Source: Hemileia vastatrix
Taxonomy: Eukaryota > Basidiomycota > Pucciniomycetes > Pucciniales > Zaghouaniaceae
Length of the DNA: 64,000 nucleotides
Assembly: GCA_030280995.1 (NCBI GenBank)
Contig: JASXTE010000017.1
Coordinates: 26,833,998-26,897,997 of the forward strand
Direction of reading: 5' to 3'
Positions 23,083 through 47,077 of this stretch are shown piece by piece (within the stretch, counting starts at the first letter, position 1; every line of letters begins with the position of its first letter). Made by a program: the position numbers and the translations under genes. Below the pieces are notes generated by a model. It was not told the origin of the DNA. It made no database searches and saw nothing but the letters and a program-made list of their open reading frames with translations.

Positions 23083-26000
23083 TTAGGGCTGATTACCCTA
23101 GTGCTACAACCTTTCACCGAGATGAGGAAATTCCAGCTTGTAGTAGGTCAGCTCCCTTGGAGATATACCAAGTGGATTTTCAACTTTCTCTTTTTAATGT
23201 TTCTCTTCTTTGCAAGTATTTATCAAGTTTTTTATCAAGTCTCTGTTCTCTCTCAAGATTCTTAATTATTTTTAATCCAAGTTCAAGGAAGAAGATTCTT
23301 TATATATCTTTATTGAAAGATATGCGGAAAAGTTTTGGGGCTGTGAGATTGGGGTCTAAAAGTAAGTCCTCCCAATTGTGCACCGCTAGGGTTTCTTCTA
23401 CACCTTTCAAAAACATTACCTGGGCCACACCTGTGAGCATTGGGGAAACCCCTGGTTATTTTTGTAGGACAGAAGAAAACTCAAGAAAAGAAGATAAAAA
23501 TTTCAAGATAATTCAAGAAAATCAAGAAAAAAATCTGAAGATAATGAAGAAAGAAGATGCAAAATATTTTTGTGAAGATTGTCAAGATCTATTTTTGGGT
23601 CTCCAGCATGAGGTTAAACTGCAGAAAATTTTGAAGAGAGAAGATCATCAATATCGATTTTTGGGCCTCCAGCATGAGGATAAACTGCACAATTTTAGAA
23701 AATGTGATTCAGAAGATGAATCAAGATTTGAAGATTTGGAAGTTGGAAGTGAGGATGAAGATGTGGAATTGCGGAAAAGTTTTGGAGTGGTGAGATTGGG
23801 GTCTAAAAGTAAGTCCTCCCAATTGTGCACCGCTAGGGTTTCTTTTACACCTTTCAAAAACATTACCTTGGCCACGCATGTGAGCAATGGGGAAACCCTT
23901 GGTTTTTGTTCCAGGTCTGGTGGTGAAGATTTCCTGAAGATCCCTCAAGTTGAAGGTGAAGCGGCAAAGTATAAGAAGATAGCGCAGAAGATTAGGCCTG
24001 TCAATGAGCCTATACCTGTGGGCTTGAATCTGCCCTTGAAGAAACCTCCTTTGTCAAGAGATCTGTACTGTACTCCTTTGGTGAAAAATCCTCCAGAATT
24101 TGTAGAGACGGCTAGGGTGACGGTGGAAAGATTGAAAGTTGTTAGTTTTGGTCCTGATGGGTGGTTGTCTGAATAAGAAAAGAAGTTGTTGTTGCACGTT
24201 ATTTTGCTAAGGGAAAAAGCTGTGGCATTTGTTGAGGAGGAAAGGGGTGTATTGAAGCACTCTTATGGGGAACCTTACTTGATTCCTGTGGTTTGTCATG
24301 AACCTTGGCAAATTAAACCTATTCCGATTACAGCCGCTATTAGAGAGGATTTTGTGGAGATTGTTAGGGAAAGAGTCAGGACTGGGTTATATGAACAATC
24401 AACATCCAGTTACTCAAGTCTGGTGCTCTGTGTAAAGAAGCAGAATGAAAAGTTGCGGGTAGTTCATGATTTAGAGCCTTGAATAGAGTCACTATCAAGG
24501 ACGCTGGTATGCCACCAAGTGCAGAGGATTTTGTTGAAGCTTTTTCTGGAAGGGTGTGTTATGGTTTGGGTTATATTATGGGTGGTTAAGATGAGAAGGA
24601 ACTACATACTGATTCAAGGCCTCTCACAACTTTTGAGACTCCTTTGGGAAGATTTCAGCTCACTAGGTTGCCTCAAGGAGCAACTAATTCAGTGGCAGTT
24701 TATCAAGCACAGATGGCTTGGATTTTTCAGGATGAGGTTCCTACTCATGCTGGTATTTTTATTGATGATGGTGGAATTAAAGGACCATCCACCGATTATG
24801 GTAATGAGGTGTTAGCGGAGAACCCTGGCATAAGGAGGTTTGTGTGGGAATATGCAATAGCTCTAGAGAGAGTGTTGTTCAGGATTGAAGAGGCTGGTTT
24901 GAACATTTCAGGGTCAAAATTCTGTTGTTTTATTCCTGCTTTGGAAATTCTGGGTCATGTGGTATGTAAAGAGGGAAGGATTATGGCAAAGAAGAAGATT
25001 AATAAAATTCAGTCATGGCCAAGGCCTAAAAATACTACTGAAGTCAGGGGATTATTGGGTGTATGTGTATATGTCAGGATTTTTATTAAGGATTTTTCTT
25101 TGTTGGCTTCATCTTTAAGGAGCTTGACCAGAAAAGATGCATATTGGGAAGGGACTGAAGAGTGTGAAGAGGCTTTTCAGAAGTTGAAAAAGGTTGTTGG
25201 TGAAGATATTGTTCTTCACAAGTTGGATTATGGTGTTGGTGCTGGAAAAATTTATCTGGAAGTGGACTCAAGTTATATTGCTGCTGGTGCTGTTATGTCT
25301 CAGGAGGATAAGACTGGGAGGGTCAGGCCAGTAAGGTATGAGTCTGTGGTGTTTAATGAGGTGGAATCTAGGTATTCTCAACCTAAGTTGGAATTGTGTG
25401 GCGTAGCTAAAATTTTAAAGAAGCTCCAGACGGTTTTGTGGGGGCAGTATTTTGAGCTTCAGGTGGATGAAAAATCTTTGGTTCAGATGATCAATACACC
25501 TAGTCTTCCAAATGCTCCAATGACTAGGTGGGTGGCATTTATTCAACATTTTTCTTTTGACCTGGTACACAAACCAGGTAAAACTTTTACTATGCCTGAT
25601 GGATTATCAAGGAGGCCACCTACAGATGAGGATTCTGATTCTGAAGAGATTGACGAAGATTTTCCAGTGATTAAGGCCAGCACAAAGGGTGCTGAGGATT
25701 TTTCTTTCCTCCCCCATGAGGCTAAACTGGATGAATGTTCTGACCTCCCCCAAGAGCCTAAACTGGCAGGACCTGATATTGATTCTGGTGATCAGGATGT
25801 TTTTGTTGATGAAGATAGAGTTGTTGTTTGGGACAGTTCAAAATTGGAAAAGGGTGTTTTTGTTAGTGAACTGGATTCTCACAAGGTTCAGTGGAAAGAG
25901 AAGGATGTGCCAAAATTTAAGGATTGGTGTCCTGGTTGGGCTGCTCAATTGGCTCATGTTCACACTGGTGATTTCGATGACAGAGTTGTACCCTTGGATG

Positions 26001-27292
26001 TTGTTCTGTTGGATTTTGAAGATGAGACCTGGGGTCAGTCTGGGTTTTATTTTAGTTTGGTGGAATATCTGTTGACCTTGGAGAGGCCAGATAGTTGTGA
26101 TGATGATACTTGGTTGGCAATCAAGAAGAAGAGTCCTGGCTTTTATGTGTCAGGAAGGAAGTTGATGAGGAGGAGACATACAAATCCTCAAGTGGTGGTG
26201 ACTCAGAAGAAGGGTCAAGAATTGGTTATGAAGTCTTTGCATGAAGACCTTGGTCATAGAGGCTTTGGGGAGACTTATAGAAGAGTAACAGACAGATTTT
26301 GGTGGCCTGGTATGAAGTTGGCTGTGCAGGGTTGGGTTCAATCTTGTGAAGAATGTCAAAGAAGAAGTCACTTGAAACCTAAAGAGGTGGGCCATGCTAC
26401 TGGTGAATCAACTGTTTTTGGAAGGGTCAGCCTGGATGCTGTCCATATTAAAGAGGGCAGGTATAAATACTTGATTGTTGCTAGGGATGATTTGTCTGGT
26501 TGGGCTGAGGCAGTGCCTCTGGTTAATTTGACTGCCAAGAATGTGGCAGAGCTTTTGAAGAAGGAGTGGATTTATAGGTATGGGTTGATGAAGTTGGTCA
26601 CTGTTGATGGTGGGCCAGAGTTTGGTGCCGAATTTAAAGAAGCTGTGGCCAGTGTTGGTTCTAGGGTTAGAGTGGCTACACCGTATTATCCTGAAGCTGA
26701 AGGCATGGTTGAAAGAGGCCATCAAGTTATCAAGAATGCTTATGTGTGGAGATAGTGCCAAAAAGTGGAGGCATTATTTACCCTTGGTGTTATTTGCGGA
26801 TAGGGTCACTGTGAAGAGGAAAACTGGCTATTCTCCTTTGAGTTAATGTTTGGTCAGAAAGCCGTTCTACCAGTGGACTTGGAAGCTGTCTCTTATCTTG
26901 GAATTGATTGGGATGACATGCACTCAACAGAAGATTTGCTCTGTGCCAGGATGCAACAGTTGGAATGTAGAGAGGAATGTCAGGAGAAGGCATACTCTAG
27001 AATGATGAAGATTAGGAATCAATCAGTCAGGTACTGGGACAAAAAGCGGGCTCATAGACTCAGGAATCCCTTGAAACCTGGTTGTTTGGTTTTGGTGTAT
27101 AATAGAAGTTTGGAGAGTCATTGGGGGAAAATGTTTGCTGACAGATGGAATGGACCTTACAGAGTCAGATCTCAGGCGTCTGGAGTTTCTTATGTTTTGG
27201 AAGAGTTGGATGGTGCAGTCTTAAAAAAGAGGGTGGCTGCAGACCAAATGAAGAGGTTTTATCCCAGAGGCACTAGGCATGAAGAAGATTGA
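23071..27292 (+). pseudogene. Element E pol (linker, RT, RNase H, integrase), several breaks
   Basis: The linker (23080-24000) holds two near-identical blocks around GSKSKSSQLCTARVS (23350, 23810) and two LQHE.KL peptides. RT follows, with FIDDGGIKGPSTDY (24760), RNase H (DYGVGAGKIYLEVDSS, 25230; PDGLSRR, 25600), integrase HHCC (HEDLGHRGFGETYRR...CEEC, 26240-26360), the DDE core (LDAVH, VTVDGGPEFG, AEGMVERGHQ) and a GPY/F module (RWNGPYRV, 27150). Breaks: TAA (24174), a lost base near 24470, an 8-base loss after IKNA (26735, shared with H), and a loss near 26842. The stop is the TGA at 27290. Confidence 0.93.
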
Positions 27293-27426
27293 CTCCGTAA
27301 TGAGGATAAACTACGGACCATTCTTTAATCTTTTTTTTTGTGGTGATTCTATGCATATGTTTGTTGGAAATTTTTGTTAGAGGGTACCCATGGGTGGGGC
27401 CTCTAGATTTTGTCTTGGCAAGTGTA

Positions 27427-27467
27427 GGGGTGACTGATGGGCTGGCTGCTCTATCAACAGTTACCCC
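27427..27467 (+). ncRNA. Hairpin alpha, copy 1 (E)
   Basis: GGGGTGACTG pairs with CAGTTACCCC (one G-U pair) around a conserved loop ATGGGCTGGCTGCTCT. Confidence 0.7.
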
Positions 27468-27688
27468 AGATTGTCTGTTTCCAACCCTTTTTCTTAATTT
27501 GGTTGAACCCTAGTATTGGTTTCTTTTCACAGGTTTAAGTCCTCTATGAATTAAAACTGGAAATTCCTTTGGTTTTCATGTGCCGGACTCTTCACTTTTA
27601 TTGGTTTTGGTTTATAGTGTTAAATGTTGTGTTTTGTTGGTTAGAAGGTACCCAGGGGGGGCTTCTAGATTTTATTTTGGCAAGTGTG

Positions 27689-27730
27689 GGGGTAACTGAT
27701 GAGCTGGCTGCTCTGTAGAACAGTTACCCC
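27689..27730 (+). ncRNA. Hairpin alpha, copy 2 (E)
   Basis: GGGGTAACTG pairs perfectly with CAGTTACCCC, with the same loop core (GCTGGCTGCTCT). Relative to F the pair A/T has become C/G on both sides. Confidence 0.75.
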
Positions 27731-27869
27731 AGAATTTCTGTCTCAAGTCTTTTGTTTTTCCTAGTTGAATTCTAGTTCTGTTGTTTATTATTCAGGTTTT
27801 AAGTCCACTATGACTTTAAACTGGTTTGGAACTGGCTTCTCTATCTTTGGTTCTTTCAGATTGGTGGTG

Positions 27870-27925
27870 GATCACTGGTGGTCTCCCATCATTTTTACTT
27901 ATTGGAGGGAGCCCACCCAGTGATC
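27870..27925 (+). ncRNA. Inverted-repeat structure beta (E)
   Basis: GATCACTGG at the left pairs with CCAGTGATC at the right, with inner pairing of GGTCTCC against GGAG and CCCA segments. Counterparts are at 35691-35750 (F) and 48320-48379 (G). Confidence 0.65.
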
Positions 27926-28102
27926 GTTTCTATGGACCGGACTTTCTCTTATTGGGCCATCTATGGAGCTGGACTTTCTTTGATTTTGCAGTTATGTTTT
28001 TGCTAGATAGCAGTTTTAGATTATTTTCTTTTTTCTCTTTTTTTCTTTTAATTTTTTTATGAAGGTTGTTTAAAATTATAAAATCAAAAATATAGGGTGT
28101 TA

Positions 28103-28172
28103 CCACATCAGGGTCACCTGGATGTGGGCAAGCATTGGTGGGGAAAGGCTCATCAATTGGCCGGGCAATGCT
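28103..28172 (+). ncRNA. Structures gamma and delta, copy 1 (E)
   Basis: Gamma (28103-28127): CCACATCAGG pairs with CCTGGATGTGG, one bulge. Delta (28131-28172): AGCATTG pairs with CAATGCT outside, GGC with GCC inside, loop TCATCAATTG. Confidence 0.7.
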
Positions 28173-28298
28173 ATTTTCTTTTTTTATTTATTATTTATTT
28201 CATGTGTTTCTGTGTTTCATTATTTTTATTATCTTCTTAATTTCTAAATATTTTGAACTTTGTTTTCTGTTAATCATTTAAAAGAATTAATTGTGTAT

Positions 28299-28368
28299 CC
28301 ACATCAAGGTGCACTTGGATGTGGGTAAGGTATCAGGGGATCAGCTCATCAATTGGCTGGGGGATACC
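28299..28368 (+). ncRNA. Structures gamma and delta, copy 2 (E)
   Basis: Gamma (28299-28324): CCACATCAAG with CTTGGATGTGG. Delta (28329-28368): GGTATC with GATACC outside, CAGC with GCTG inside, loop TCATCAATTG unchanged. The stems differ from copy 1 on both sides while pairing is kept. Confidence 0.75.
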
Positions 28369-28525
28369 ATTTGTATTATTTTTTATATTTTATTTTATTT
28401 CATTTATGTTATTTCATTTCGTTTTAATTACTATTTTTTTATTTTAGTATATCAGTAGACAAAAAAAAAAAAAAAAAAATTCTAAAATTATTTTTATTAT
28501 TATGTTTCTAATCTTTTGCAGGAGC

Positions 28526-30106
28526 TCATTGTCTGGATGATGAAGCTTCTGGAGGCTGGTCCGGATTGTGATGACATTTTTGTTTTTTGTTGGGATTGTG
28601 GGAAGCACTGTGTTCTTTGAAGTGCATCCTGCTGGAGAGATGATAGGGATTGTAATGGTCAGGAACTGTATTAGAGGGAAGTTCAGAGGAGGAAGAAGAA
28701 GAGGTAGGAATGGAGTGCTGGAGGGTGTGTTTAATGATCCTAGACATTTTACAGTGGTTGTCCAGTAGGGGCTTTCTCAGGGATATTTCAAAGTCATTCA
28801 AAGGTCCATGGAGGGCAAAGGCTTTTAGCATGTTGGAACACATGGTGCTTAGGTGTTTCTTCATGTCTCCATAATCCAGGGTCAAAGAAGTTTCAAGAGT
28901 TTGGCCAACTCCAATAATAGATTCATGAAGAGGGGTGCCAACTAGACAAGAAGAATTGGATCAGTAATTATTTTTTTGTTGAAGAAATGGAATTATTAAT
29001 TTGGTACTTACAGATTGGAAGCTCATCAAATCTGTAAGCAGCTGGGATTTGGATCTCTGACAATTTTGTAATGGTTATAGTGGGTGGATTAAATAGGGAA
29101 AGATTGGATTCTCATGGTCTTCCTCTGAAGGATCCTGAGAAGGTGAACTGGGATGCTGAGGTTCCTGGGGCCTAGTTGGAGCAGTGAGATTGTTGTTGTT
29201 GTTGTGGTTGTTATTTCTGTTGGATTCAGCTGGAGGAGGTGCTGGTGATGGAGTGCCAGGGTTGTTAAAGTATGGAGCAGGAGAGGGGGATTTGGAAGAA
29301 GACTTCTCTCTTCTGGATGGAGATTTTGAAGAGATGGAACTGTTAGAAGAGTAGTTGGCTGACAGAGGAGAGGTGTAGTTTCTTTGTCTTAGTTGGGGAC
29401 AAAGTTGTTGTTGTGGAACAATGTGTGGTGCTCTGGTTTCTTCTTGGGATTCTCTGGCAGGTCTCTTGGAAATCTGGGAAATTTTGGTGCTTTTGGATTT
29501 TGGAAGGGTTGATTGAATTGCTCTGGGAGCAGTAGGAGGTAGTTGGGTTGAGTTGTTGTTGTTGTCTGGATGAATTTGGCTGTTTTCTGGACGTTTTTGG
29601 AGGTTTTGGCCCTGATTTTCACTGTTTGGTGAGGCGGCCAGGCCGCCTGGACGCGGTCTAGAAGCCTGGGAGTTGATCTTGAAGCTTTTGGAGCTAATTT
29701 GGCGGAGATAAAAGCAGTTTCTTGTGAGGCTAAGGCTGGTCTTTTGGGAAGAGTGCGGGAAGCTGAGCTTCTGGATCTTCTGGAAGGAGCAGAAGATAGA
29801 GGGGAAGAGGAAGGACCAAGCTCTGGGGATCTGGTAGGAGATCTTTGGATTCAGGATTTGGAAGAGTGAATGTGCAAGGTCTGCACATGTGGATTCACTG
29901 TTTGCAGTCATAGTCCTTGGGAGCAGTGAAGCAAGGGAGAGTAGAAGGGTTAACATCAGAAGATCCAGCCATGATCTGTGGTGAGAAAAGATGATGAAAA
30001 GAGATAGGTGGAGATTTTTTGTCAATGATGGGTAGATGATGAAGTGAAGGGGAAAGCTCAGCAGGTTGGTTGTAGAGGTGTGCTGCATGAAATTGGTTGC
30101 GTCCAT
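28526..30106 (-). CDS. Unrecognised antisense gene in element E, probably two exons
   Basis: A reading frame of 343 codons spans 30106-29075. From about residue 150 it is rich in Ser, Pro, Gln and Asn, with runs of NNNN and PAPPP. A second frame (28885-28526) ends in a poly-Ser tail and SSSRQ-TGA. Between them is a textbook intron on the minus strand: GTAAGT at 29011, TTGTCTAG ending at 28942 (70 nt). Splicing joins ...AYRFDELPI to FGTPLHESIIGVGQTL..., giving one continuous frame across the junction, although a TGA separates it from the long upstream frame near 29115. No known family recognised. It runs opposite to the retroelement; F and G have nothing comparable here. Could be captured host DNA. 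Confidence 0.45.
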
Positions 30107-30123
30107 TTTTATGCAAAATTCCG

Positions 30124-30385
30124 TTAGTCCATCAAGACTCTAAACTAAAAAAGCAATGTTATCAAGACAGTCCATAAAGACTCTAAACTGAAAAAAGCTA
30201 TGGTATCAAGGCATTCCATCAAGACATTAAACTGAAATCTGGTTTCTGTTAGTCCTCCAAGACTTTAAACTGGCTGGTTTCAAGATTTTATCAAGTCTAG
30301 TCCGTCAAGACTTTAAACTGAACACTGTGTTAGTCCCCCAAGACTTTAAACTGAGGGTTGTAAGTCCCTCAAGACTATAAACTGA
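30124..30385 (+). repeat. TTAAACTGG-hairpin array, part 1 (E)
   Basis: About eight copies in 260 bp, for example AGTCCTCCAAGACTTTAAACT and AGTCCGTCAAGACTTTAAACT. The stem AGTC/GACT is constant, the six-base loop varies (CATCAA, CATAAA, CTCCAA, CGTCAA, CCCCAA, CCTCAA), and the TAAACTG tail is constant. Confidence 0.85.
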
Positions 30386-30476
30386 GGGAAAAATCTTTTG
30401 TTGTTGGAGTTGGTTTTGAAAGATTGGTGGAGGGTATCCACAGGGGGAGCCTCTGAATTCAGCAAAGGCAAGTTTG

Positions 30477-30517
30477 GGGGTAATTGATGGGCTGGCTGCT
30501 CTATTCACAATTACCCC
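30477..30517 (+). ncRNA. Hairpin alpha, copy 3 (E)
   Basis: GGGGTAATTG pairs perfectly with CAATTACCCC, with loop ATGGGCTGGCTGCTCT as in F and G. It lies inside the 3' array, 2.7 kb from copy 2. Confidence 0.75.
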
Positions 30518-30593
30518 AGAATGTTAGTTTTTTCTCTGTGTCTTAATGTGGTTGATCTCTGGTTCTGGGTTTAAGATTTAGGTTTTTGAGTCC

Positions 30594-30682
30594 CCCAAGA
30601 CTTTAAACTGAGGGTTTTTGAGTCCCCCAAGACTATAAAATGAGGATGGTCCCCCAAGACTTAAAACTGAGGGTTGTTTGTG
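30594..30682 (+). repeat. TTAAACTGG-hairpin array, part 2 (E)
   Basis: Three closely spaced copies with loop CCCCAA: AGTCCCCCAAGACTTTAAAC and two variants, one with a GGTC left arm. Confidence 0.8.
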
Positions 30683-30730
30683 GTTACATCCTATAGAGGG
30701 TGTGGTCAATTTTTCTTTTCTGAATCAAAC

Positions 30731-31370
30731 TCAAGTACTAGTGGAATCACAGAGGGAATCAAGAGATGAAATGAAGTGTTCAGAATTAGCCTTGAACTGG
30801 TGAATGAGGTGTCTTCTGTTCTCAATGTCCTGTGGATCTCTAGCAGGAGTGGATTGGAAGTAGTGAAGCAGAAGTTGTTTCTGTTGAGATATGTGTTGTT
30901 GGAACTAGGCCTTGATAGTGGGCAAGTGCGTTGGTGTTGGTGGTGCAATGGATCCTACATTGTTATCATCTCTATCAGAAGAGAGAGGAACTGAGAAGTT
31001 ATCATTTTTAAAGTTGAAGGAAGAAATGAATGTTCTTTACCATCAGATGGACCAGGGATGGGGAACTAGTTGTTTTATGGTTTGTGGCACTCTTCTGGGA
31101 AGGGTGGAGCTTTTTGATTAATCTGGGTATCAGGATGGATGGCCTAGATCTTTTGGTGCTGGCAGAAGAAGGACCAGGTTGAGGTGGAGGTGAATCTGTT
31201 GTGGAAGAAAGTGGACCAGGTCTGTGGCAGGTCTTCTTTCTGGATTGGCAGACAATGCAGGACATTCTGTATGGATGGACAGGTGGTGTCATGGCGCAGA
31301 TTAAATTATTGTCGATGAAGTATTGGCAGGGGCCCATTTCAGAGGCAGATTTGGGAAGAAGGTTAAACAT
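30731..31370 (-). pseudogene. Antisense Zn(II)2Cys6-like gene in element E, decayed
   Basis: Start at the ATG at 31370 (MFNLLPKSASEMG). Residues 14-50 carry the six-position pattern C-X2-F-X6-C-X12-C-X2-C-X6-C. The second Cys is replaced by Phe; spacing and the closing RKKTCHRPG match the gene in element G (C-X2-C-X6-C-X12-C-X2-C-X6-C, VKKVKCNRP). Exon 1 ends at 31041, the intron is 30991-31040 (GTAAAG to TTCTCAG), and exon 2 (30990-30731) has LLLHYFQSTPARDPQDIENR, matching MLAYFQETPANNHEDL of G. The splice phase does not fit exon 2, and one in-frame TAG (a CAG by C-to-T) breaks it. It ends only about 50 bp from the PPT, opposite to pol. Confidence 0.65.
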
Positions 31371-31408
31371 GGTGGTTGGATGAAGAAAGAATGTGGACAT
31401 TCTCAATT

Positions 31409-31418
31409 GGAGGGAGGA
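31409..31418 (+). other. Polypurine tract, element E
   Basis: GGAGGGAGGA directly before the TGTGG of the 3' LTR. The longer context TCTCAATTGGAGGGAGGA is also found, on the other strand, in F and G. Confidence 0.85.
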
Positions 31419-31916
31419 TGTGGTCTTCCAACATTGGCAGGGGCCTTTGTTGTGTGATTTGGCGCTGTTTGTGCATGTCTTAATTGACATCTGTTAAGGA
31501 ATTGGGTATTTTTCTGGTTTTATTCCATGGATAATGGGTCTGCCGGTATGTGGGTACTATCATTGGATAGCCCTGGTTTTTCTCTATATTTTATGTCTTG
31601 AAGACATTTTTCATATTCTAAGTTCAAGGGGTCATTTCCTCATTTTTCATTTATAAAAGATTGCTGTTTAATTTTGTTTTTCGTGTTTTACAGGCTAACC
31701 TTAAGCCTTAGGGTTAAGTGCTTAGTAACATTGGATAGAGCTTATTTTTCTCTATATTTCATGTCTCAATCTTGTTATAGTGAAATTCCGTGTTTTAAAG
31801 GTTTTAGTAGTTGTAGCTAATTTTTCTAAGTAGATTAGTTGTTTTTATTGGTTTTCTGGCTTCAGGGAGGCCGGGCCGCTTCAGGCAGAATCTCCGACGT
31901 CAGGCGGCCCACCCGC
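31419..31916 (+). repeat. 3' LTR of element E, first 498 bp
   Basis: Aligns with 19538-20016. It stops at GGCGGCCCACCCGC, where H begins. The remainder should follow H outside the window, preceded by a second CCGC. Confidence 0.9.
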
Positions 31917-32386: not shown

Positions 32387-33579
32387 TATGGTAAGGTAAA
32401 CTCTTACAGTCGCCTTGCTGTAAGCAGAATCCGGAGGAGATATGTGGATTTAGCTGAAAACCCCGTCCTTCCAATAAAATAACAAAGTAGGTGTTCTAAA
32501 TCACTAAGCTAACCAATCTACTTAGATCTGATTGATAAAAAATAATGAAACTCTAAAATATTTAACGCTTATTGAGATTTAAAGAAAGTGGCTGTTGAGG
32601 AAAGAAATACTGATAACAACAATTAAGGTGTACCAGTGAAAGATCTGAAAAGATTGACTTTTATGTTTTTATAATAATTTAAATTTTTATGAGACAGCAA
32701 TAATCAAGTCCCAGTGATGAAGACCTTTCTAAAGATACCCTATATGAAGTGTTATTTTAATTGTTGAATTGTATTTCTAAGATGTTATGTAAAAAATAAT
32801 AATGTTATAAGGGTATTACAAGTTATTTTAATTTGTTGAGTAATAAAAAATGAGACTGTGGTAGTTAATGATTAAGCTGTATGATGTGTCCCCCTTTTTC
32901 AATTTCGAGTTTGAGACGCGCTTAAGTATTCCTAGTCACGTGCCTAAGTTTTCCCCTCCAGAGCTCTTCCAGAGTCAATCCGGAGCCCGTACGGAGTCCG
33001 TACGGAGCCGAAGCGGAGTCCGAACGGAGTCCGTACGGAGTCGAAGCGGAGTCCGAACGGAGTCCGTACGGAGTCGAAGCGGAGTCCGAACGGAGTCCGT
33101 CCGGACTTCCGGACTCAATTAGAACCTTAAAACTATAATAAAAAATCTAGAAAAATTACACATAATAGAGCTACTTCCCCTTTACATACCAAACTAATTT
33201 TCGTAGTCTGCGCAGCTCTAATTACCCCGTGAAAATTCATCGAAGTTAAGTAATTTCTGAAAACGTAAATATTTCTATAAAACTTTAAAATTCATTTAAA
33301 AATATAAGAAAAATAGTAAAAATTCTGGGAAAATTTCCCAAGGTTCTTGAGTGACTCGACTTAATAATTATAAATTTTTCAGACCGTAAAAATAAGTTTT
33401 CTCCGTAAAATAAATTGTTTTCGTGTAGGCATTCGCTTGTGACCAATTTCTTCATATTTAAAACTCAAATAAATTAAATAAAACCCTTTTATATATAAAA
33501 AAATAATAACGCCAATCTTGCACGCCGTAATAACTCCATTTACATATTTAGGTGCCGTACTAAACTTTAGGCTACCACA
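32387..33579 (-). repeat. 3' LTR of element F
   Basis: On the minus strand TGTGGTAGCC to CTTACCATA, 1193 bp. The 3' terminus is TA rather than CA, fixed by the target duplication. It contains eleven units of the 11-bp minisatellite (32990-33110). Confidence 0.93.
32985..33112. repeat. 11-bp minisatellite in LTR of F (eleven units)
   Basis: Units GGAGTCCGTAC, GGAGTCGAAGC and GGAGTCCGAAC alternate, giving a 33-bp higher-order period, and close with GTCCGTCCGGACTTCCGGAC. CpG-dense in AT-rich DNA. Other LTRs of the family have 10 (F right), 4 (G left) and 5 (G right) units. Confidence 0.9.
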
Positions 33580-34195: not shown

Positions 34196-34239
34196 TTTAA
34201 CATCCTAAAGCTATCAGCACCCAAATCCAGAAATAATTG

Positions 34240-35037
34240 AATAACCAGTTTAAAGTCTTAGTGGACAGTGATAAATTAAAAGATTGAATTGAGTTATCCA
34301 AACAAGATTGACATTCCAGTTTAAAGTCTTGGTAGACCAAACATATAATCGATTGCCAGTTTATGGTCTTGGTGGACCAAAGATCGTTTAGGTGCATAAA
34401 TAACTTGATAAATTCCTAAGTAAGGCCTAGGCTTGACCAAAGATTGAATAAATTTGATAATCCAGTTTAATGTCATAGTGGACCAAACATTTGATCGACA
34501 AGTAATCCAGTATAAGGCCATAGTGGTCCAATGAATGTTGAATTATCCTGCAGATATTAATTTTCCAGTTTAAAGTCATAGTGGACTAAACAATGAATGA
34601 ACTACCAGTTTAAAGTCATGGTGGACCAAACATTTAATCGATAAGAAATCCAGTTTAAGGTCATGGTGGACCCAACAGCTTGATAACAATCCAGTTTAAG
34701 GTCTTGGTGGACCTAACATTTGATTTATATAAAAAAAAATCCGTCTCCGAAAATATCCATAAAATCTTGAAAATCCTTGAAATTCAGTTTAAAGTCTTGA
34801 AGGACTAACAGCTCCATTATAAAATCTTTAATGAAAGTCTTGAAAATTAGCCAGTTTAAAGTCTTGGAGGACTAACAGATCCAAAATACGTGTAAAAAAA
34901 AAAAACCTTAAAGAACGTCTTGAACAGTAGCCAGTTTAAAGTCTTGGTGGACTAACAGATCCAAAATAGGTATAAAAAACCTTAAAGAACGTTTTGAACA
35001 GTAGCCAGTTTAAAGTCTTGGAGGACTAACAGCTGTC
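34240..35037 (-). repeat. TTAAACTGG-hairpin array, element F
   Basis: About thirteen copies 35-90 bp apart. On the element strand each reads stem, six-base loop (CACCAA, CACTAT, CACCAT, CTCCAA), stem, TTAAACTGG. The stems change together: GTC/GAC, AGTC/GACT, GGTC/GACC, AGGTC/GACCT. Confidence 0.88.
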
Positions 35038-35159
35038 TTGAAGTAAAATCCCATAGGTATTGAGCTCTCCTAGACCCTGTTTCCTGTCTAAACTAAATGA
35101 ATAAAACTAAAAAGAATGAAAACTAAAAAAATAAAACTAAGAAATATAATAATGATTTT

Positions 35160-35190
35160 GATTTAATTAATAAATTTTAATTTTAATTTT

Positions 35191-35224
<34 letters not shown>

Positions 35225-35376
35225 TATTATTATTATTATTTTTTTTTTTTTTTATTTTATTTTTTTTTTTATTTTTATTTTTTTTTATTTATTATTTAAT
35301 TTATTTTTAATTTATTTTTATATTTATTTTTATTATTATTATTATATTTTTTTTTTTTTAATTTTATTTTATTTTA

Positions 35377-35422
<46 letters not shown>

Positions 35423-35440
35423 AAATAAAAGATTTTAGAA
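35160..35440. repeat. T-rich low-complexity tract in F
   Basis: Long runs of T broken by A. A shorter version is in G (47910-48030) and a related tract follows delta in E (28375-28490). No coding content. Confidence 0.9.
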
Positions 35441-35549
35441 AAGATAGTTTTTAAATAAAAGTTAAAATTTAATTTTAAAGAAAGATAAATGAATGTGAAA
35501 AGAAAGATAAAAAAAGTACTAAAAAAAAATTTAAAATAAAATTTTAAAA

Positions 35550-35619
35550 GATGCCCCCCGGCCATTTGATGAGCCGTACCCTTGACATCATACCCACATC
35601 CAAGTGCAACTTGATGTGG
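35550..35619 (-). ncRNA. Structures delta and gamma (F)
   Basis: Delta (35550-35589): on the element strand GATG pairs with CATC outside and CGGC with GCCG inside, loop TCATCAAATG. Gamma (35594-35619): CCACATCAAG with CTTGGATGTGG. Both are homologous to the two copies in E. Confidence 0.72.
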
Positions 35620-35690
35620 TTACACAATTTTAAGAAATTGAAAAGAAAATAAAATAAATGAAAGTTTTTAAAAGATAATTTTTATAATGA

Positions 35691-35750
35691 TGATCACTGG
35701 GTGGGCTCCCTCCAATTTATAAAAATGATTAGAGACCACCAGTGAGCATC
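35691..35750 (-). ncRNA. Structure beta (F)
   Basis: CACTGG (35695-35700) pairs with CCAGTG (35739-35744), with inner GGGCTCCCTCC facing GGAGACC-like segments. Homologous to 27870-27925 of E. Confidence 0.65.
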
Positions 35751-35878
35751 ACCTTTACAATAATTCATAATATATATTAAAGAAAAGAAATCACAATCTA
35801 ACATAAAAAATCAAAAACAAAATAAAATAAAAAAAATCTTGAATCCGGCGTTGAGAACGGTGTCTCTTGATTCGTTCC

Positions 35879-35905
35879 AGTTTATAGTCTTAGTGGACTT
35901 CCTAA
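35879..35905 (-). repeat. Single TTAAACTGG-type hairpin between alpha and beta (F)
   Basis: The element strand reads AGTC, loop CACTAA, GACT, then ATAAACTGG. It sits in the same place as 27803 of E, which has loop CACTAT. Confidence 0.7.
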
Positions 35906-35966
35906 AATTAAAAGACAAAGCCAGGATTCAACTAGAAACAGGGAAAATTTTGGAAACGAACATTAT

Positions 35967-36007
35967 GGGGTAATTGTGTATAGAGCAGCCAGCCCATCAA
36001 TTACCCC
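35967..36007 (-). ncRNA. Hairpin alpha (F)
   Basis: GGGGTAATTG pairs perfectly with CAATTACCCC. The loop on the element strand is ATGGGCTGGCTGCTCTATACA. Confidence 0.75.
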
Positions 36008-36227
36008 CACACTTGCCAATATTAAATTAAGAAGGTTCCCCTGTGAACACTTCTTCCAATAAGTTTTAAAAAATTTTCCAACACTATCTTCACCCATATT
36101 TAAAGAATTTTAAGTTTTGAAAATTTCAAAGATGGTCTTCTTGAATTTCGTTAAGTTTCATCATAGTTTTGTCGCCCATAGGAAGTGAAATAGTAAAGTA
36201 TTTTTGATAAAAATAAGAAGATAGTTT

Positions 36228-36490
36228 ATCCTCGTTGCGGAGGAATCCGTATAATTTTCATAAATGTCATAGTTTATCCTCATTGCGGAGGTATCCATAA
36301 AGTTTCATTGATATCATAGTTTATCCTCATTGCGGAGGAATCCATAAAGTTTCATTGATATCATAGTTTATCCTCATTGCGGAGGAATACATAAAATTTG
36401 ATAAATGTCATTAAAATTGTAGTTTACCCTCATTTCGGAGTTGATAAAATTTAAGAAATTTCATAGTTTATCCTCATTGCGGAGGAAGAC
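36228..36490 (-). repeat. CCTCCGCAATGAGG repeats across the pol stop (F)
   Basis: About five copies of CCTC, loop CGCAAT, GAGG, ATAAACTATG on the element strand (one or two with AAATGAGG). The first encodes the last residues of pol (FLRNEDKL and the stop); the others lie in the 3' untranslated region. Confidence 0.85.
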
Positions 36491-39400
36491 TTCGGCACTC
36501 CTGGTGCCTCTAGGATAGAACCGTTTCACTTGATCGGCAGCTACCCTCTTCTTCAATACAACTCCATCCAACTCTTCTAGCACATATGAACTGCCGGAAA
36601 CTTGCTCCTTGATTTTATACGGTCCATTCCACCTATCTGCAAACATTTTTCCCCACTGACTTTCCAAACTCCTATTATACACCAGGACCATATCACCTGG
36701 GTTCAAAGGTTTCCTTAATCGATGTGCCAACCGCTCATCCCAATATCTGACTGATTGATTTCGGATCTTCATCATCCGTGAATATGCCTTTTCTAAATAT
36801 TCTTCTTTCTTTTCTAGCTGCATCATTCTTGCACACAATAATTCTTCAGTAGTTTTGACCGTGTCCCAGTCAACTCCAAGATATGATTCAGCTTCTAAAT
36901 CAACCGGTAAAACTGCTTTCTGTCCAAAAACAAGTTCATAAGGTGAAAATCCGGTCGTCCTTTTGGCAGTGATTCGATCAGCAAATAAAACTAAAGGTAA
37001 ATAGTGCCTCCACTTTTCGGCACTTGTCCCACACATTTTAACTAAAGCATCCTTAATAACTTGATGCCCTCTTTCAACCATGCCTTCAGCTTCAGGATAA
37101 TATGGGGTTGCTACCCTAACCTTTGATCCAACTTTCAATACGGCCTCTTTAAACTCTGTCCCAAATTCAGAACCTCCATCTACCGTTACCAACTTCATCA
37201 CCCCATACCTATATACCCAATTATTCAAAAAAAATTCTGCCACATTTTTGGCAGTTAAATTAATAAGAGGCGCTGCCTCTACCCAACCAGATAAATCATC
37301 TCTGGCCACAATTAAATATTTATACCTCCCTCTTTTATATGAACGGCATCTAAACTAACTCTTCCAAAGAGCGTATATTCACCGGTCGCGCGTCCAGGTT
37401 CTTTTGGCCTTAAATAACTTCGTCTTTGACATTCTTCGCATGACTGAACCCACTGTTTAACAGCCATCTTCATGCCAGGCCACCAAAATCGATCAGAAAT
37501 TCTTCTAAACGTTTCTCCAACGCCTCTATGCCCAAGATCTTCATGCAGTGATTTCAAAACTAATTCTTGCCCCTTCTGTTGAGTTATAACTACTTGAGGA
37601 TTTGGATACCTCCTCCTCATTAAACGTCGACCAGATAGGTAAAACGTAGATGACTTCCTCTTGATAGCCACCCATTCATCGTCTTCACAATCTTCTGGCC
37701 TCTCTAAAGTCAACAAATATTTGACTAACAAAAAATAAAAACCAGTCTGACCCCAGACTTCATCTTGAAAATCGATTAATATAACATCAATAGGGACTTC
37801 TCTATCACCAATATCACCTGCACATGAATGAGCCAATAATCGTTGACCCCTAAATAAATTTTTAATCGAGCTATGTCGACGTTTTTCTTCTGAACCTTTG
37901 GATCCTTCGAAAACCGTATTTGAAAATACCTCTTTCTCTTTATCCACCTTTTTATTTAAATTCTCTAATTCTCCAACATATACACCATTCCTTAATTTAC
38001 TACTATCCCACACTACCAATCCATTTTCCTCTACATACACCACATCTTCTTCTACCTCCTCTCTGCCGAATTTATCTACACCTTTTCCAACACCTTTATT
38101 AACATAAAAACTATTTTCCAGTTTATCCTCTTGGTGGAGGTCATCATCATCATAATCTAAACACAATAGTCCTGCCAGTTTAACCTCATGGGGGAGGTAT
38201 GGAAAGTCTTCAGCTCCTTTAGTGCTGGCTTTGATAGTAGGTATATCTTCATCGAACTCTTCTGAGTCTGAATCTTCTTCAGTGGGTGGTCTCCTTGATA
38301 AACCATCTGGCATAGTAAAAGTCTTGCCAGGCTTATGAACTAAATCAAATGAAAAATGTTGAATAAAAGCTACCCATCTCGTCATGGGTGCGTTCGGTAA
38401 ACTTGGGGAATTAATCATCTGGATTAACGATTTCGCATCCACTTGCAACTCAAAATGTTGCCCCCACAAAATATGCTGAAGTTTCTTCAGTATTTTCGCC
38501 ACACCACATAATTCCAATTTTGGTTGAGAATATCTTGATTCGACCTCAGTAAATACTACAGATTCATACCTAACTGGCCTGATGTAACCAGCTTTATCCA
38601 TCTGAGACAAAACCGCCCCAGCTGCAACCTGACTTGAATCGACTGCTAAATAAATTCTGCCAGCTTCTTTTCCATAATCCAACTTGTGCAGGACTAAATC
38701 CTTCCCTACAACCTCCTTCAACTTCACAAACGCCTTCTCACACTCTTCATCCCACTCCCAGTCTGCATCCTTTCTCGTTAACCGTCTCAATGGAGCTGCC
38801 AATGAAGAAAAGTCCTTGATAAACATTCTAACATATACGCAAACGCCTAAAAACCCTCTAACTTCGGTCGTATTCTTGGGTCTTGGCCAGGACTGAATTT
38901 TGTTAACTTTCTTCTTGGACATAATCCTACCCTCTCTACATACCACATGGCCTAATATTTCTAAAGCTGGCACACAACATGAAAATTTTGAACCTGAAAT
39001 AGTTAAGCCAGCCTCTTCAATTCGAAACAAGATTCTTTCTAAAGTAATTGCAAACTCCCAAATGAATTTGCGTATCCCGGGATTCTCTTCCAACACCTGG
39101 TTATCATAGTCGGTTGTTGGTCCCTTAATTCCTCCATCATCTATAAAGATTCCAGCATATTGTGGAATATCATCTTGAAGGATCCAAGCCATCTGAGCTT
39201 GATAAACTGCAACCGAATTTGTTGCTCCTTGAGGTAATCTTGTTAACTGTAAACGTCCAAGTGGCGTATCGAATGTAGTGAGAGGCCTTGAGTCCGGATG
39301 TAACTCTCTCTCATCATATCCACCCATAATATCTCCCAAACCATAACACACTCTCCCTGCAAACGCTTCAACAAACTCCTCAGCACTAGGTGGTATCCCA

Positions 39401-40602
39401 GCATCCTTTATTGTAACCCTATTTAATTCCCTAAGATCATGAACAACTCTAAGCTTGCCATTCAGTTTCTTGATACAAAATACCGGACTAGAATAACTTG
39501 ACGTTGATTGCTCATACAGTCCAGTGCGTATCCGTTCTCTGACAACTTCGATATAAGCTTCTTTCAATGCAGCCGGAATAGGAATCGGTTTCTGCTGCCA
39601 CGGTTCATGACATACCACAGGAATCTTGTAAGGCTCCCCATAGGAATGCTTCAACACACCCCTCTCCTCTTCTACAAAAGCAATGGCCTTCTCTCGCTTG
39701 ACCATCACATCCAACAACAACTTCTTCTCTTCTCCAGACAACCAACCATCAGGTCCAAAATTAACAACACCCAGTCTCTCAAAAGTGATTCTTGACGTCT
39801 CAGAAAATTCAGGCGGATTCTTTACCAAGGGACTTTCATAAGGATCTCTTGATAACCTTGGTCTTCTCAAAGGTGGATTTAATTCAGCAGGTAGCGGTTC
39901 ATTAATAGGTCGAACTTTATTTGCTACTTTCTTATATTTGGCTGCGTCCACATCTAAAAAAACTTGAGGTAAAACATCGCCATTAAAACTTTCATCAAAT
40001 GAATCATCTTCATCGCCAGAATCAGAATAAGAAAAATTAGAAAAATATTTTATTTCATTTTTAAATTTTACCCTTTTCTCCTTTCCCTCGTCTAATTTAT
40101 AAACAGATTTTCCAACACCTTTGCTTCCCTTATCCAACAGTAAATCACCCGTAAAGAAAGTTGGCAGTTTATCCTCTTGCTGGAGAACCGGAATTGAATT
40201 TTCACAAAAATTATTTTTTTGTGTTTTAATTATACTAAGATTTTTAATCGGGTTTTGATGATATTTTCGCAGTTTACCCTCTTGCTGGAGGTCCGTAATA
40301 GAAGGAGATACTTGCAGTTTAACCTCTTGCTGGAGGTCATAAAACATACCCTTCCAATTTTTATCCAACCTAATTTGGCCCATTTTGCCTTTTTTACCAT
40401 TTTTAAATTTAATAGAAAAAGAGGGTAAATCCAATAAACATATAGAAAAGTCCAAAACGTATTTGCACTCCAAAGTAATATTAACAGAAAATAATTGAGA
40501 ATCCACTTGAATTATCTCCAAGTGAGCTGACCTATTGCAATCCGGGATCTCATCCTGAGGAGAGATTACAACATTAGAGCGATCAGCCCCTGCTACCCCA
40601 AA
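36461..40602 (-). CDS. Element F pol: RT-RNase H-integrase, one frameshift
   Basis: Translated through the -1 site at 40599-40605. The linker has three LQQE.KL peptides, RT has LPQGATNSVAVYQ and FIDDGGIKGPTTDYD, and RNase H has LAVDSSQVAAGAVLSQ, the E in PKLELCG and LQVDAKSL. A second linker (LPHEVKLA, LHQEDKLE) precedes integrase, with zinc finger H-X3-H...CEEC, catalytic LDAVH, VDGG.EFG and AEGMVERGHQ, and a GPY/F module (RWNGPYKI). The product copies the element RNA and integrates the cDNA. One base is missing near 37325 (KEGG against KEGRYKYL in G), shifting the frame inside the integrase core; 37309-36461 carries the rest. Without it the protein would be about 1380 residues. One residue in the second Asp motif also differs (DGGSEFG, not DGGPEFG). 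Confidence 0.92.
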
Positions 40603-43177
40603 AAATGAGGGCATTCATCCCTTTCCAACAAACATAATTCACCAGAAGCTGTCCGTTTTATATGCCGCTTCTTGGTGCAAACACAACACTGGCACAGAGT
40701 AGTAATCCCTGGCCGTGTTTCCCAACCTTCATCTCCAGGAGGCGCTAAAAGCATATGTAACCTCTGCATATCTTCACCAGTGATCTCCAAACTAATCCCC
40801 ATGCCAGCTTGATACCCTATCCTGACCTCAAAATCCATCAAAAAAGGACCACCAAGAACAGTTTTGACTGCTCCTCTGGCCACATAAAAGTGAACCTTAC
40901 CAACAGATCCACCAATGCCTAGCTGTACCCATCAGCTCTGTTGCATGCCCTCCAATACCTCTGAGGTTTCCCCCAGTTCCACTTTTAATTGGCAAGCCTA
41001 TACCCGTCGCTTGCTCCAATGAAATTAAATTAATTTGAGACCCTGAATCAACCAAGGCCTTTACTTCTTTACCATTTAGAGTTACCACCAGGTAACCCAG
41101 GGGAGCGGAAAAATGCGTATCTACATCTTCCCCAAACTTCTCAGCATTTTCACAAATATATTCCACCTCTCCAGTGGAAACCCGACGCCTCGTCAAATGC
41201 TTCTTTTGCTTTTCAGCAAGCGCCGGACTAATCGTAAATAACTCCCCCAAAGATAAGGGAATCTGAAGTTGATTCACCCTATTCAAAACTGCGTCCATCG
41301 CATTAGCTTGACCAGAAACTACTGGCCGCTCATACTGAACCTTTGATTTAACAACCTTGGCCCTGGGTACCTCTTGAGGTCCAACCGAGCCATCTTCAAC
41401 CCCCATTATAACATCTTCACTTTCTATAACCCTAACTCCGTCACCAGCTTCTTGCACTAATCCTGATCCATCGCTAGTCCTTCTTACACCCTCCATTAGG
41501 ATGGGACCACTAAAACTTGGTCTGGGTAGAGACGCCAACGGTACGTCCTCCTCAGAATCCAAATCATCCTCTGGCATAGGCTCACCATTTAAATCAAACT
41601 TTCCATAACTAGGGGGCCCCATATCAGCAATCCCCTTCTGCATTTTATATAATTTGTCCTTAGAGTAAGGGTTCAATTTGTTGGCGGCAGTTTAAGCACT
41701 AGAATTCTTGTCCTTAGAGTAAGGGTTCACTTTGTTATTGGCCTTGCCAGGATTAGCCCTCAATTGGCTCTGAATGCTACTTTTCGCCTTAGTAGCAGCT
41801 GCTCTTCTAGCAGCATTAACATCATATTCGCCAGCCATACAGCTACCCTCCAGTTGCCAGCTCTAAACCTCCAAAAGAAGTAGAAAATGTGGCTTTACTG
41901 ACCTCTTTCTCCTTACCCTTGTCAGATTTACCCCCATTACCATTACCATTTTTGCCACTCTTGGCATTAACATCTTCATCCGTCACCTCTTCAAATCTGG
42001 CTCTCCTTTCAGCCGTTAAACTTCTTCTGACCAAATCAGAAGGAGACTGTCCATCACTGGGCTTGATGAACGAACCATCAGGAAATTTATAAACTTTACC
42101 ATCAAATAAAACTCGCCCAGCATCCATATCCTTATCAAGAGCAAAACAAACTGTTGCTCTGTGACCCCTCCTATTACAATAGGAGCACACCTTTGGCTCA
42201 TCATAGCCACCTCTATAATTACTACCACCATTCCCAACATTTCTCCCATTGCCTGGGAAGCGGTTACCGTTGTTATTGCCATTATAATTTCGACGTTCAT
42301 AACCTCTAGACTGATAAGAAGTCAACATCGACAAAGAAGCAATTGGGGCCTTGTTGGCCTTCTGGGTTTCTTGAACAAATATTTTTAATTGTTTTGTTAA
42401 ATCGGCCAGGTGATCGACCATATTATTGTCTACATTGCCCTCAACTTTAGCAGCCGGTAATCCCATTTGTGCCTTCTTGGCCTCCTGCGCTTTGACCATA
42501 ATATCGTTGTTTTCGGCCAAAACTTCGCTAACCTTGCTAACATATTGAGTGCATGACTCTTGATATTTGTCCAACGCCAATAACTTTAGATGGGCTTGAA
42601 TGTTGTCCTTGATAACCTCCAGAGCCGGCAGTTTCTGCTCACCATTAGGCAGTTCCTTCATCAAATCTTTTCTTGAAAGATCCTTCAAGACGTCCATTCG
42701 AATATCCCTGCTGCATGCTGTCCAAAACAAATCTTTTGCTTGGTTCTCATGCACTAACTTGTCCACCAGTATGAGATATTCCACCACTTCATCAAACTGA
42801 ACACAGAGCTTTTTGAAGTCAGCCATAGAAGAAACTCCACCTTTTGCTTGCCAGTCTCCAACAATTTTATTGAGGTCCATCATAGTAAACCTAACACCCC
42901 ATCTATCAACCATAGCTTTAGAAAGCTTAACCCAATCCTTGTCCTTAAATGCCTGCATAGCAATAACCTCTTTTTCCACCTCCCTATCAGCAATAAAAAA
43001 CCTAACTTGCTTCACCATATCCACATGGGAAGCACCATCAACAGCAGCAGCAGCTTCATACCTGCTAATGAACCATTTAACCTCCTCCCCATCAAACTTT
43101 GGGCCATCCCAAGAAACAATTCTAACTGAGGGAGTAAGAGGGTTAGAAGATCCAGAAGCAACAGCAGAAGAAGACAT
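40593..43177 (-). CDS. Element F gag-protease, three shared breaks
   Basis: Start at 43177 (MSSSAVASGSSNPL), first ATG after the PBS. Gag runs 444 codons with a capsid-like region and a CCHC knuckle CSYCNRRGHRATVC (about residues 330-343) after an Asn/Gly-rich stretch. It ends at GGA GGG TAG (41843), and the similarity continues in the +1 frame. A TAA interrupts a duplicated NPYSKDK segment (about 41690), and a base change of frame occurs at about 40915 inside the protease after ALVDSGSQINLI (41040). The last part (VLGGPFLMDF, Cys patch CQCCVC) ends at TTG GGG TAG after the slippery site. G carries the same three breaks, so they predate both insertions. Gag forms the particle; the protease cuts the polyprotein. 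Confidence 0.88.
40599..40605 (-). promoter_or_regulatory. -1 frameshift heptamer (T TTT TTG), element F
   Basis: On the minus strand the codons read CAT TTT TTG GGG TAG. Slipping back one base gives TTT TTT GGG GTA and enters pol. Same position relative to the stop as in D, E and H. Confidence 0.72.
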
Positions 43178-43335
43178 CCCAATAAGTAATGAAAAGCGTT
43201 AACAATTGATAAAATAACAAGCCTCTTGCAGGACAATAACAAAAATCCAATTAGAGTTCCAGAAAATAAGCCTCTTGCAGGCTAATAACGTTCTTGATCC
43301 AAGTAAGTCTTTTAAAGAAAGCTAGAGAAATCGAA

Positions 43336-43352
43336 CCCCACATTGGGCGCCA
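43336..43352 (-). other. Primer binding site, element F
   Basis: The minus strand reads TGGCGCCCAATGTGGGG, two bases after the LTR end. Confidence 0.85.
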
Positions 43353-43354
43353 AC

Positions 43355-44568: not shown

Positions 44569-45678
44569 TATGGTAAGGTAAACTCTTACAGTCGCCTTGC
44601 TGTAAGCAGAATCCGGAGGAGATATGTGGATTTAGCTGAAAACCCCCTCCTTCCAATAAAAATAACAAAATGGGAATTCTAAATCACTAAGCTAACCAAT
44701 CTACTTGAATCCGATTGATGAAAATAATGAAACTCTAAAATAATTACGCTTATTGAGATTTAAAGAATGTGGCTGTTGATAAAGAAATACTGATAACAAC
44801 AATTAAGGTGTACCAGTGAAAGATCTGAAAAGATTGACTTTTATGTTTTTATAATAATTTAAGTTTATATGAGACAGCAATAATCAAGTCCCAGTGATGA
44901 AGAACTTTCTAAAGATACCCTGTATGAAGTGTTATTTTAATTGTTGAGTAGAATTTCTAAAATGTTATATATAAAATATTAAGTTATAAGGGTATTACAA
45001 TTTATTTAATTTGTTGAGTAATAAAAAATGAGACTGTGGTGGTTAAAGATTAAGCTGTATGATGTGTCCCCCCCTCTCAATTTCGAGTTTGAGAAGCGCT
45101 TAAGTATTCCTAGTCACGTGCCTAAGTTTTCCCCTCCAGAGCTCTTCCAGAGTCAATCCGGAGCCGGAACGGAGTCCGTACGGAGTCAAAGCGGAGTCCG
45201 TCCGGACTTCCGGACTCAATTAGAACCTTAAAAATTTAATAAAAAATCTAGAAAAATTACACATAATAGAGCTACTTCCCCTTTACATACCAAACTAATT
45301 TTCGTAGTCTGCGCAGCTCTAATTAACCCGTGAAAATTCATCAAAGTTAAGTAATTTTTGAAAACGTAAATATTTCTATAAAACTTTAAAATTCATTTAA
45401 AAATATAAGAAAAATAGTAAAAATTCTGGGAAAATTTCCCAAGGTTCTTGAGTGACTTGACTTGATACTTATAAATTTTTCAGACCGTAAAAATAAGTTT
45501 TCTCCGTAAAATAAATTGTATTTGTGTAGGCATTTGCTCGTGACCAATTTCTTCATATTTTAAACTCCAATAAATTAAATAAAACCCTTTTTATAAAAAA
45601 AATAATAACTCCAATCTTGCACGCCGTAATAACTCCATTTACATATTTAGGTGCCGTACTAAACTTTAGGCTACCACA
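44569..45678 (-). repeat. 3' LTR of element G
   Basis: 1110 bp, TGTGGTAGCC to CTTACCATA on the minus strand, four minisatellite units (45160-45205). It differs from the LTRs of F at many positions (AACAAAATGGGAATTC against AACAAAGTAGGTGTTC). Confidence 0.93.
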
Positions 45679-47070: not shown

Positions 47071-47077
47071 AATTGAA

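Follow-up and report, generated by a model that had tools for sequence, protein, structure and literature searches.

Exoribonuclease-resistant RNAs (xrRNAs) are known from RNA viruses (PMC10520033). One of them, coremin or xrRNA-C, occurs in beny-, cucumo- and other RNA viruses, mycoviruses included, and combines a short hairpin with a conserved spacer to stall Xrn1, also in yeast (Dilweg et al. 2023, PMC10520033; Flobinus et al. 2018, PMC5869530). The first coremin hairpin (hp1) has 3–4 bp, with a C-G pair closing the loop and a U-A pair next to it, and a loop of the form YGAD or, at six nucleotides, YGNNAD; the spacer holds UAAACU, and a second hairpin (hp2) stands directly behind it (PMC10520033). 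In a viral context the hexaloops CGCAAU and CGAAAU were resistant to Xrn1, whereas six named hexaloops with the loop G absent or shifted did not stall it, and a loop ending in C was inactive in one construct (PMC10520033). Repeats of coremin are known, in two viruses the motif embeds a stop codon, and the structure was called unsolved in 2023 (PMC10520033). Here we describe a similar hairpin repeated along long terminal repeat (LTR) retrotransposons in a 64,000-nucleotide stretch of the Hemileia vastatrix genome (contig JASXTE010000017.1; "the window" below), and weigh the idea that its arrays act as serial roadblocks to Xrn1 on the element RNA.

The repeated hairpin and its match to coremin

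The window carries two related LTR retrotransposon families, represented by A1 and A2 on the minus strand and B1 on the plus strand, together with a second, cut B element (B2), an element C and remnants. The motif in question has a short stem, a six-base loop and the tail TAAACTG. We scanned for 13 anchor letters (inner stem TC/GA, loop C1, loop A5 and TAAACTG), leaving the outer stem letters free, and counted as a copy any site with at least 12 of the 13; the tail was sought at one fixed distance, so its spacing is by construction. This gave 73 copies (12–13 of 13 anchors) over the 64 kb, and five first-order Markov sequences yielded no copy at all. TTAAACTGG is present 27 times in the window, compared with an average of 1.4 after shuffling. 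Every copy (73/73) is in the sense orientation of its own element. The three well-covered elements hold 24 (A1), 25 (A2) and 17 (B1) copies, and the remainder belong to C (2), B2 (2) and an A-type remnant (3). In each of A1, A2 and B1, the stretch with 5′ LTR, leader, gag and protease (40351-44536, 53131-57264 and 19538-23590, respectively) has none. In the order of the elements, and with UTR for untranslated region and RT for reverse transcriptase, the copies are distributed as follows.

34245-35028, minus: A1 3′ UTR array between pol and 3′ LTR, 12 copies by the anchor scan
35877-35900, minus: A1 lone 3′ UTR copy
36221-36486, minus: A1 pol end, 6 copies, loops CGCAAT, CGAAAT and CGCAAC, CUA tail
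38118-38198, minus: A1 RNase H-integrase linker, 2 copies in frame
40164-40337, minus: A1 protease-RT linker, 3 copies in frame (LQQExKL repeats)
47081-47764, minus: A2 3′ UTR array, 11 copies
48508-48531, minus: A2 lone 3′ UTR copy
48856-49124, minus: A2 pol end, 6 copies, CG..A loops, CUA tail
50757-50837, minus: A2 RNase H-integrase linker, 2 copies in frame
52803-53126, minus: A2 protease-RT linker, 5 copies in frame
23599-23688, plus: B1 protease-RT linker, 2 copies in frame
25707-25766, plus: B1 RNase H-integrase linker, 2 copies in frame
27291-27314, plus: B1 pol-end copy, loop CGTAAT, tail CUAC; it encodes the family-A peptide LRNEDKL, but right after a stop
27537-27824, plus: B1 3′ UTR pair, 2 copies
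30125-30670, plus: B1 3′ UTR array, 10 copies
16784-16807 and 18860-18883, plus: element C (B-related), 2 copies
62511-62570, plus: B2 (truncated by the window end), RNase H-integrase linker, 2 copies in frame
10705-10977, minus: A-type remnant, 3 copies, with a weaker fourth copy at 10850-10879

The likeness to coremin lies in hairpin, loop and spacer. The published hp1 (3–4 bp, C-G closing, U-A next) is found in the window motif, and so is the UAAACU spacer, where it is the excess of copies over simulated sequences that carries weight, the distance having been fixed in the scan. The loop YGNNAD is combined with a CUA tail in 11 of the 73 copies; two further CUA-tail loops end in C, and the other 60 copies include 58 with the loop C-N-N-Y-A-W. 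UAAACU is followed by A-Y, as published, in 11 copies and by G in 59/73. A pattern written from the published rule (loop CGNNA[A/U], spacer UAAACUAY) matched the window 11 times and 100 shuffles not once. The loops CGCAAU (6/73) and CGAAAU (4/73) together give 10/73 copies with hexaloops reported to be resistant. In the A1 pol-end cluster, the sense-first copy extends to the pol stop codon (LRNEDKL, then stop). Rfam gave no match at gathering score for the whole window against 4227 families, and seven sub-threshold matches, the best at E 0.085, for 34200-36550.

The earlier note on this DNA, which had seen about thirteen copies at 34240-35037, described the motif largely as we find it. The anchor scan places 12 copies there, all on the minus strand, and one or two decayed extra copies can be made out by eye near 34509 and 34821. 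The stem variants AGTC/GACT and GGTC/GACC occur as it described, accompanied by G·U intermediates and by a large CCTC/GAGG class absent from that account; its statement that the motif occurs in both families, in coding and non-coding parts, agrees with the array, pol-end and linker copies in A and B. The proposed loop, C-N-C-(C/T)-A-(A/T), needs correction to C-N-N-Y-A-W, mostly with tail CUG (58/73 copies), plus a second class of the published type, C-G-N-A-A-Y with tail CUA (13/73). The "constant" tail is not fully so: the base directly after TAAACTG (t8) covaries with loop position 3, a covariation absent from the earlier note.

The carrier elements are of Ty3/gypsy type, an assignment made from their LTRs, Pfam domains and gag-pro-pol order; gag was called by position and size only.

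32387-33579, minus: A1 3′ LTR (5′ LTR at 43355-44536, 99% identical)
36461-43177, minus: A1 gag (assigned by position), protease and pol frames (RT, RNase H, integrase zinc-binding domain)
44569-57264, minus: element A2, LTRs 44569-45678 and 56143-57264
19538-31916, plus: element B1, LTRs 19538-20016 and 31419-31916

Pfam recognized protease, RVT_1, RT_RNaseH and Integrase_H2C2 in the A1 frames, and protease, RT_RNaseH, Integrase_H2C2 and rve in those of B1. Among the pol homologues listed (120 of 329 matches), the closest has 75% identity over about half of the query, and those named include Puccinia and other basidiomycetes. The best named matches point to a rust fungus as the likely host; the listed protein of Austropuccinia psidii is 62% identical and lends that species no support. 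A search for pol relatives in viral contigs found none. The A-type remnant was identified by pieces of 8952-11100 that align, in matching orientation, with the LTR and 3′ UTR of A1/A2. In B1, about 4 kb separate pol from the 3′ LTR (27313-31418), and much of this stretch has no motif copies. In the A1 leader, which runs from the 5′ LTR to gag, a small hairpin of another kind, with a CCTGCAAGAGG core, occurs twice (43150-43310, minus). Inside the A1 3′ LTR, at 33000-33110, there are repeated short GC-rich units of the CGGAGTCCG-type; the window is otherwise AT-rich, with a GC content of 38%.

Conservation of structure in the sense-strand RNA

Stem pair 3 is Watson–Crick in 51 of 53 unique copies (shuffled mean 26) and stem pair 4 is a standard pair in 43 (shuffled mean 24); in the 59 distinct rows used for the structure score, these two pairs, whose letters were free in the search, are standard in 57 and 48 rows, respectively. 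The inner U-A and C-G pairs are invariant in 59/59 rows, but their letters are search anchors. A 7-pair structure including a loop–tail helix had a covariation score of 0.373 over the 59 rows, compared with 0.120 for shuffled rows and at most 0.224 for slid partners; the copies are related to each other, and covariation figures such as these are not probabilities. At pair 4 there are seven G·U and no A·C on the sense strand of the 53 unique copies (p 0.016). The motif is also better conserved than its surroundings: identity between copies is 0.85 in the A1 array and 0.82 in the B1 array, as against 0.36–0.38 and 0.27–0.31 in the respective flanks.

The copies that lie in reading frames provide a further line of evidence. 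A codon-blind search for LxxExKL peptides in open stretches of at least 30 aa found 23, two of them in open stretches of 3′ UTR, and in all of these the leucine, glutamate and lysine codons under the motif are CTC (23/23), GAG (23/23) and AAA (23/23), although CTC makes up 5% of leucine codons in the element frames. Since these codons are fixed, selection acts on the RNA, and the peptide is rejected as the unit of selection. Motif-type peptides in pol homologues numbered one among the 120 of 329 matches listed, against 0–3 in 20 shuffles, and a homologue search with the linker frame as query had no match.

Covariation extends from the stem to the contact between loop and tail. Of the 45 unique copies that are not of the published type, 41 have a Watson–Crick pair between loop position 3 and t8, compared with 19.6 after shuffling; the pair types are C-G (25), G-C (9) and T-A (7), and the signal is the strongest of all loop–tail position pairs scanned. 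Loop 4 (Y) with the tail G, loop 5 (A) with the tail U and loop 3 with t8 would form a 3-bp H-type pseudoknot. Overall, the results support selection on the RNA structure of the sense strand.

Recurrence in phage contigs

A pattern requiring a closed stem and tail A matched at least 120 stretches in IMG/VR, compared with 3 for a control with a broken stem; for tail G the numbers were 19 and 6. The phage figures that follow hold among the matches listed. Phage copies were kept if they had a standard outer pair, as did 82 of 96 distinct CUA-tail copies, with a Watson–Crick one at 14 of 19 CUG-tail loci; removal of near-duplicates then took the number from 96 to 69. Loop positions 2–4 were free in the pattern, and G is found at loop 2 in 89 of the 96 distinct tail-A copies. 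The two loop–tail combinations are shared with the window: tail A goes with a purine at loop 4 (53/56 in phages, 8/9 in the window) and tail G with a pyrimidine (12/13 and 43/44). A covariance model built from the 69 phage copies only found 57 matches in the window at E ≤1, 27 of them below 0.01 and all in sense orientation; 56 of these matches are among the 73 copies, and the last is a weaker copy.

Of the 69 phage copies, 65 lie outside open reading frames (ORFs) of at least 80 aa, where about 15 would be expected by chance. For the 62 intergenic ones, the next ORF on the same strand follows at a median of 81 nt, an opposite-strand ORF being nearer in 10; on the antisense side the median ORF distance is 725 nt (43 copies). 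A relative in Enterococcus phage VEsP-1 stands in the gap ahead of the gene that comes before the major capsid gene, and coremin-type hairpins are common in phage and prophage contigs, as at our loci L270, L308, L064, L087, L054, L387 (2528-2557) and others. In phages the hairpin looks like a 5′-leader RNA element, judging by where its copies fall; no such element turned up in literature listings (titles and abstract openings), and Rfam had no match at the motif copies in eight phage loci. Some phage copies stand, as seen by eye, directly after tRNA-like 3′ ends.

A gapped pattern gave at least 106 stretches in viral contigs and at least 119 in prokaryote genomes, both rescanned with the anchors. 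The viral set led on to the phage copies, whereas the prokaryote set was read as chance, as were the matches of the first viral-contig scans. In a Komagataeibacter contig (L193, 2250-2315), three head-to-tail 22-bp repeats match the anchors and form no outer stem.

Proposed serial roadblocks and competing explanations

We consider it probable, at roughly 60%, that the motif array serves as a series of exoribonuclease roadblocks on the element RNA, with stalling of Xrn1 predicted from the likeness to coremin. After decapping, host Xrn1 would enter the element RNA at its 5′ end and stall just upstream of a copy; a single copy may stop part of the Xrn1 molecules, and a row of about twenty would stop nearly all. 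RNAs truncated at the 5′ end and carrying the 3′ UTR and LTR would then accumulate, like viral subgenomic RNAs, and would make decay or silencing of the element less effective. The copies within pol would shield the RNA downstream of them while ribosomes still pass. The motif, its sense orientation, its covariation and its likeness to coremin are observed; that host Xrn1 stalls, that 3′ RNAs accumulate and that the element benefits is inferred, and the gain is conjectural because a stalled exonuclease does not save the full-length genomic RNA. A broader proposal is more tentative, and we rate it a little below even odds: serial coremin-type stops, some of them in pol with fixed codons, would armour retrotransposon RNA, and coremin would be a cross-domain roadblock to 5′ decay with two interchangeable loop/tail solutions, also used in phage 5′ leaders, where RNase J would be stopped.

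Besides the conjectural gain, a number of observations weigh against these proposals. As many as 59/73 copies do not have G at loop position 2, and the six named hexaloops of this kind failed to stall Xrn1 in the viral context (PMC10520033); moreover, 2 of the 13 CUA-tail copies have a loop ending in C, the type inactive in one published construct. No hp2 was detected: in sets of 66 and of 63 copies, the 28-nt stretch that follows gives no better fold than shuffled sequence, and the same is true behind the 10 published-type copies (p 0.32). The power of this test is limited, given that the 69 phage copies reached p 0.09, and there is a folding excess at 40 nt (p 0.0002) and 55 nt (p 0.004), lengths at which array stretches can include the next copy. 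Stem pair 5 is unsupported (16/53 pair, below the shuffled 23). Between A1 and A2, differences are fewer in the motif (5/242) than in the spacer (31/605), with p 0.058 when gap columns are left out and p 0.003 when they are included. The four exceptions to loop 3–t8 pairing are all C·A, with no G·U. In phages this pair forms in 29/69 copies, few in either class, and, given 41/45 here, it belongs mainly to the window; a pairing of G2 with t8 in the published-type class, seen in 8/8 unique window copies, was not borne out in phages and was dropped. The phage model misses 17/73 window copies at E 1. Finally, the fixed letters of the IMG/VR patterns were seeded from the window motif, and only the free positions constitute an independent test. 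Because hp2 is undetectable and most copies fall outside the published loop class, full membership in coremin is that of a candidate only.

Among the alternatives to roadblocks, the one that survives best, though we think it unlikely, is the suggestion of the earlier note that the copies are protein-binding sites on the genomic RNA, for instance for Gag during packaging or for an export factor. A structured, sense-strand, repeated and conserved motif is what such a site would look like, and the frame at 41843-43177 contains a CCHC-type zinc knuckle recognizable by eye (Pfam match none). However, from the 5′ LTR up to and including protease, A1, A2 and B1 are devoid of copies, and the motif resembles a fold with another known function and recurs in phage contigs, which makes the exoribonuclease-stalling RNA the better lead. 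Control of translation, with copies that pause ribosomes or set a product ratio, is less probable still. Coremin RNAs do block scanning ribosomes (PMC10520033), and some copies lie within pol or at the stop codon that ends it; yet most copies lie downstream of that stop, where no scanning is expected, and the published block concerns scanning, not elongating, ribosomes (PMC10520033).

Neutral, satellite-like tandem duplication of a 3′ UTR unit, with covariation merely inherited by descent, we regard as very improbable. Tandem repeats derived from LTR retrotransposons are a subject of papers, by their titles and abstract openings, and parts of the arrays, such as 34821-35053, are indeed plain tandem duplicates with a spacing of 74–80 nt and 70–89% identity, but from copy to copy the flanking sequence shows almost no relationship and the motif is kept, and separate copies with fixed codons sit in coding linkers. 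The earlier note would have given up its reading had the copies been found in these recent elements only and been accounted for by duplication. That case does not apply, as RNA viruses and phage contigs carry the same hairpin with its loop type and spacer. An equally poor case can be made for a dyad protein-binding site or cruciform in DNA. Every hairpin is also a dyad there, but a dyad needs neither G·U without A·C on the sense strand nor 73/73 sense copies, and does not require an asymmetric tail or loop–tail covariation. Of the two possibilities that the earlier note had drawn from covariation, RNA is the one supported (pairs 3 and 4, G·U without A·C, codons, flanks), and the cruciform is very improbable, given the sense-only orientation and the asymmetric tail.

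In titles and abstract openings of the papers listed, no exoribonuclease-resistant RNA is reported in an LTR retrotransposon or phage; the words "retro..." and "transpos..." are absent from the available text of the main coremin paper (PMC10520033), and the accessible parts of PMC10886601 and PMC8063080 have nothing on such a motif. If serial roadblocks are indeed what the arrays provide, an LTR element applies a viral RNA-stability trick at large scale, and RNA decay would become a front in the conflict between transposon and host, one that degradome data can reveal. The natural covariation would also inform the loop–spacer contact of the coremin fold, the structure that was called unsolved (PMC10520033).

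Of the known systems, coremin is the nearest. The window motif has the same inner U-A and C-G pairs, a C-first loop ending in A-[A/U] and an equal distance to the UAAACU spacer; as in coremin, a stop codon is involved, family A pol ending in a copy at its stop and the B1 peptide lying right behind one. In contrast to coremin, it is present in 17–25 copies per well-covered element, in an LTR retrotransposon and also inside pol, most copies have the loop C-N-N-Y-A-W, hp2 is not detected, and Xrn1 resistance is predicted. Tandem repeats derived from LTR retrotransposons likewise form a repeat array inside an LTR element, and we know of none that is a conserved covarying RNA module. Mini H-pseudoknots of the luteovirus type, which have a short stem 1, a 2-nt loop 1, a 3-bp stem 2 and an A-rich second loop, lie behind slippery sites and drive frameshifting. 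They would be similar to the window motif if the pairing of loop positions 3–5 with the tail forms, but the latter is present in dozens of copies, most of them in 3′ UTRs. The xrRNAs of flaviviruses and of Tombusviridae/Solemoviridae differ in architecture, having larger ring-like folds and pseudoknots; nevertheless, they are located in 3′ UTRs and intergenic regions, comparable to the placement of the motif, and would share its proposed job of stopping 5′–3′ decay and leaving 3′ RNAs (PMC10520033).
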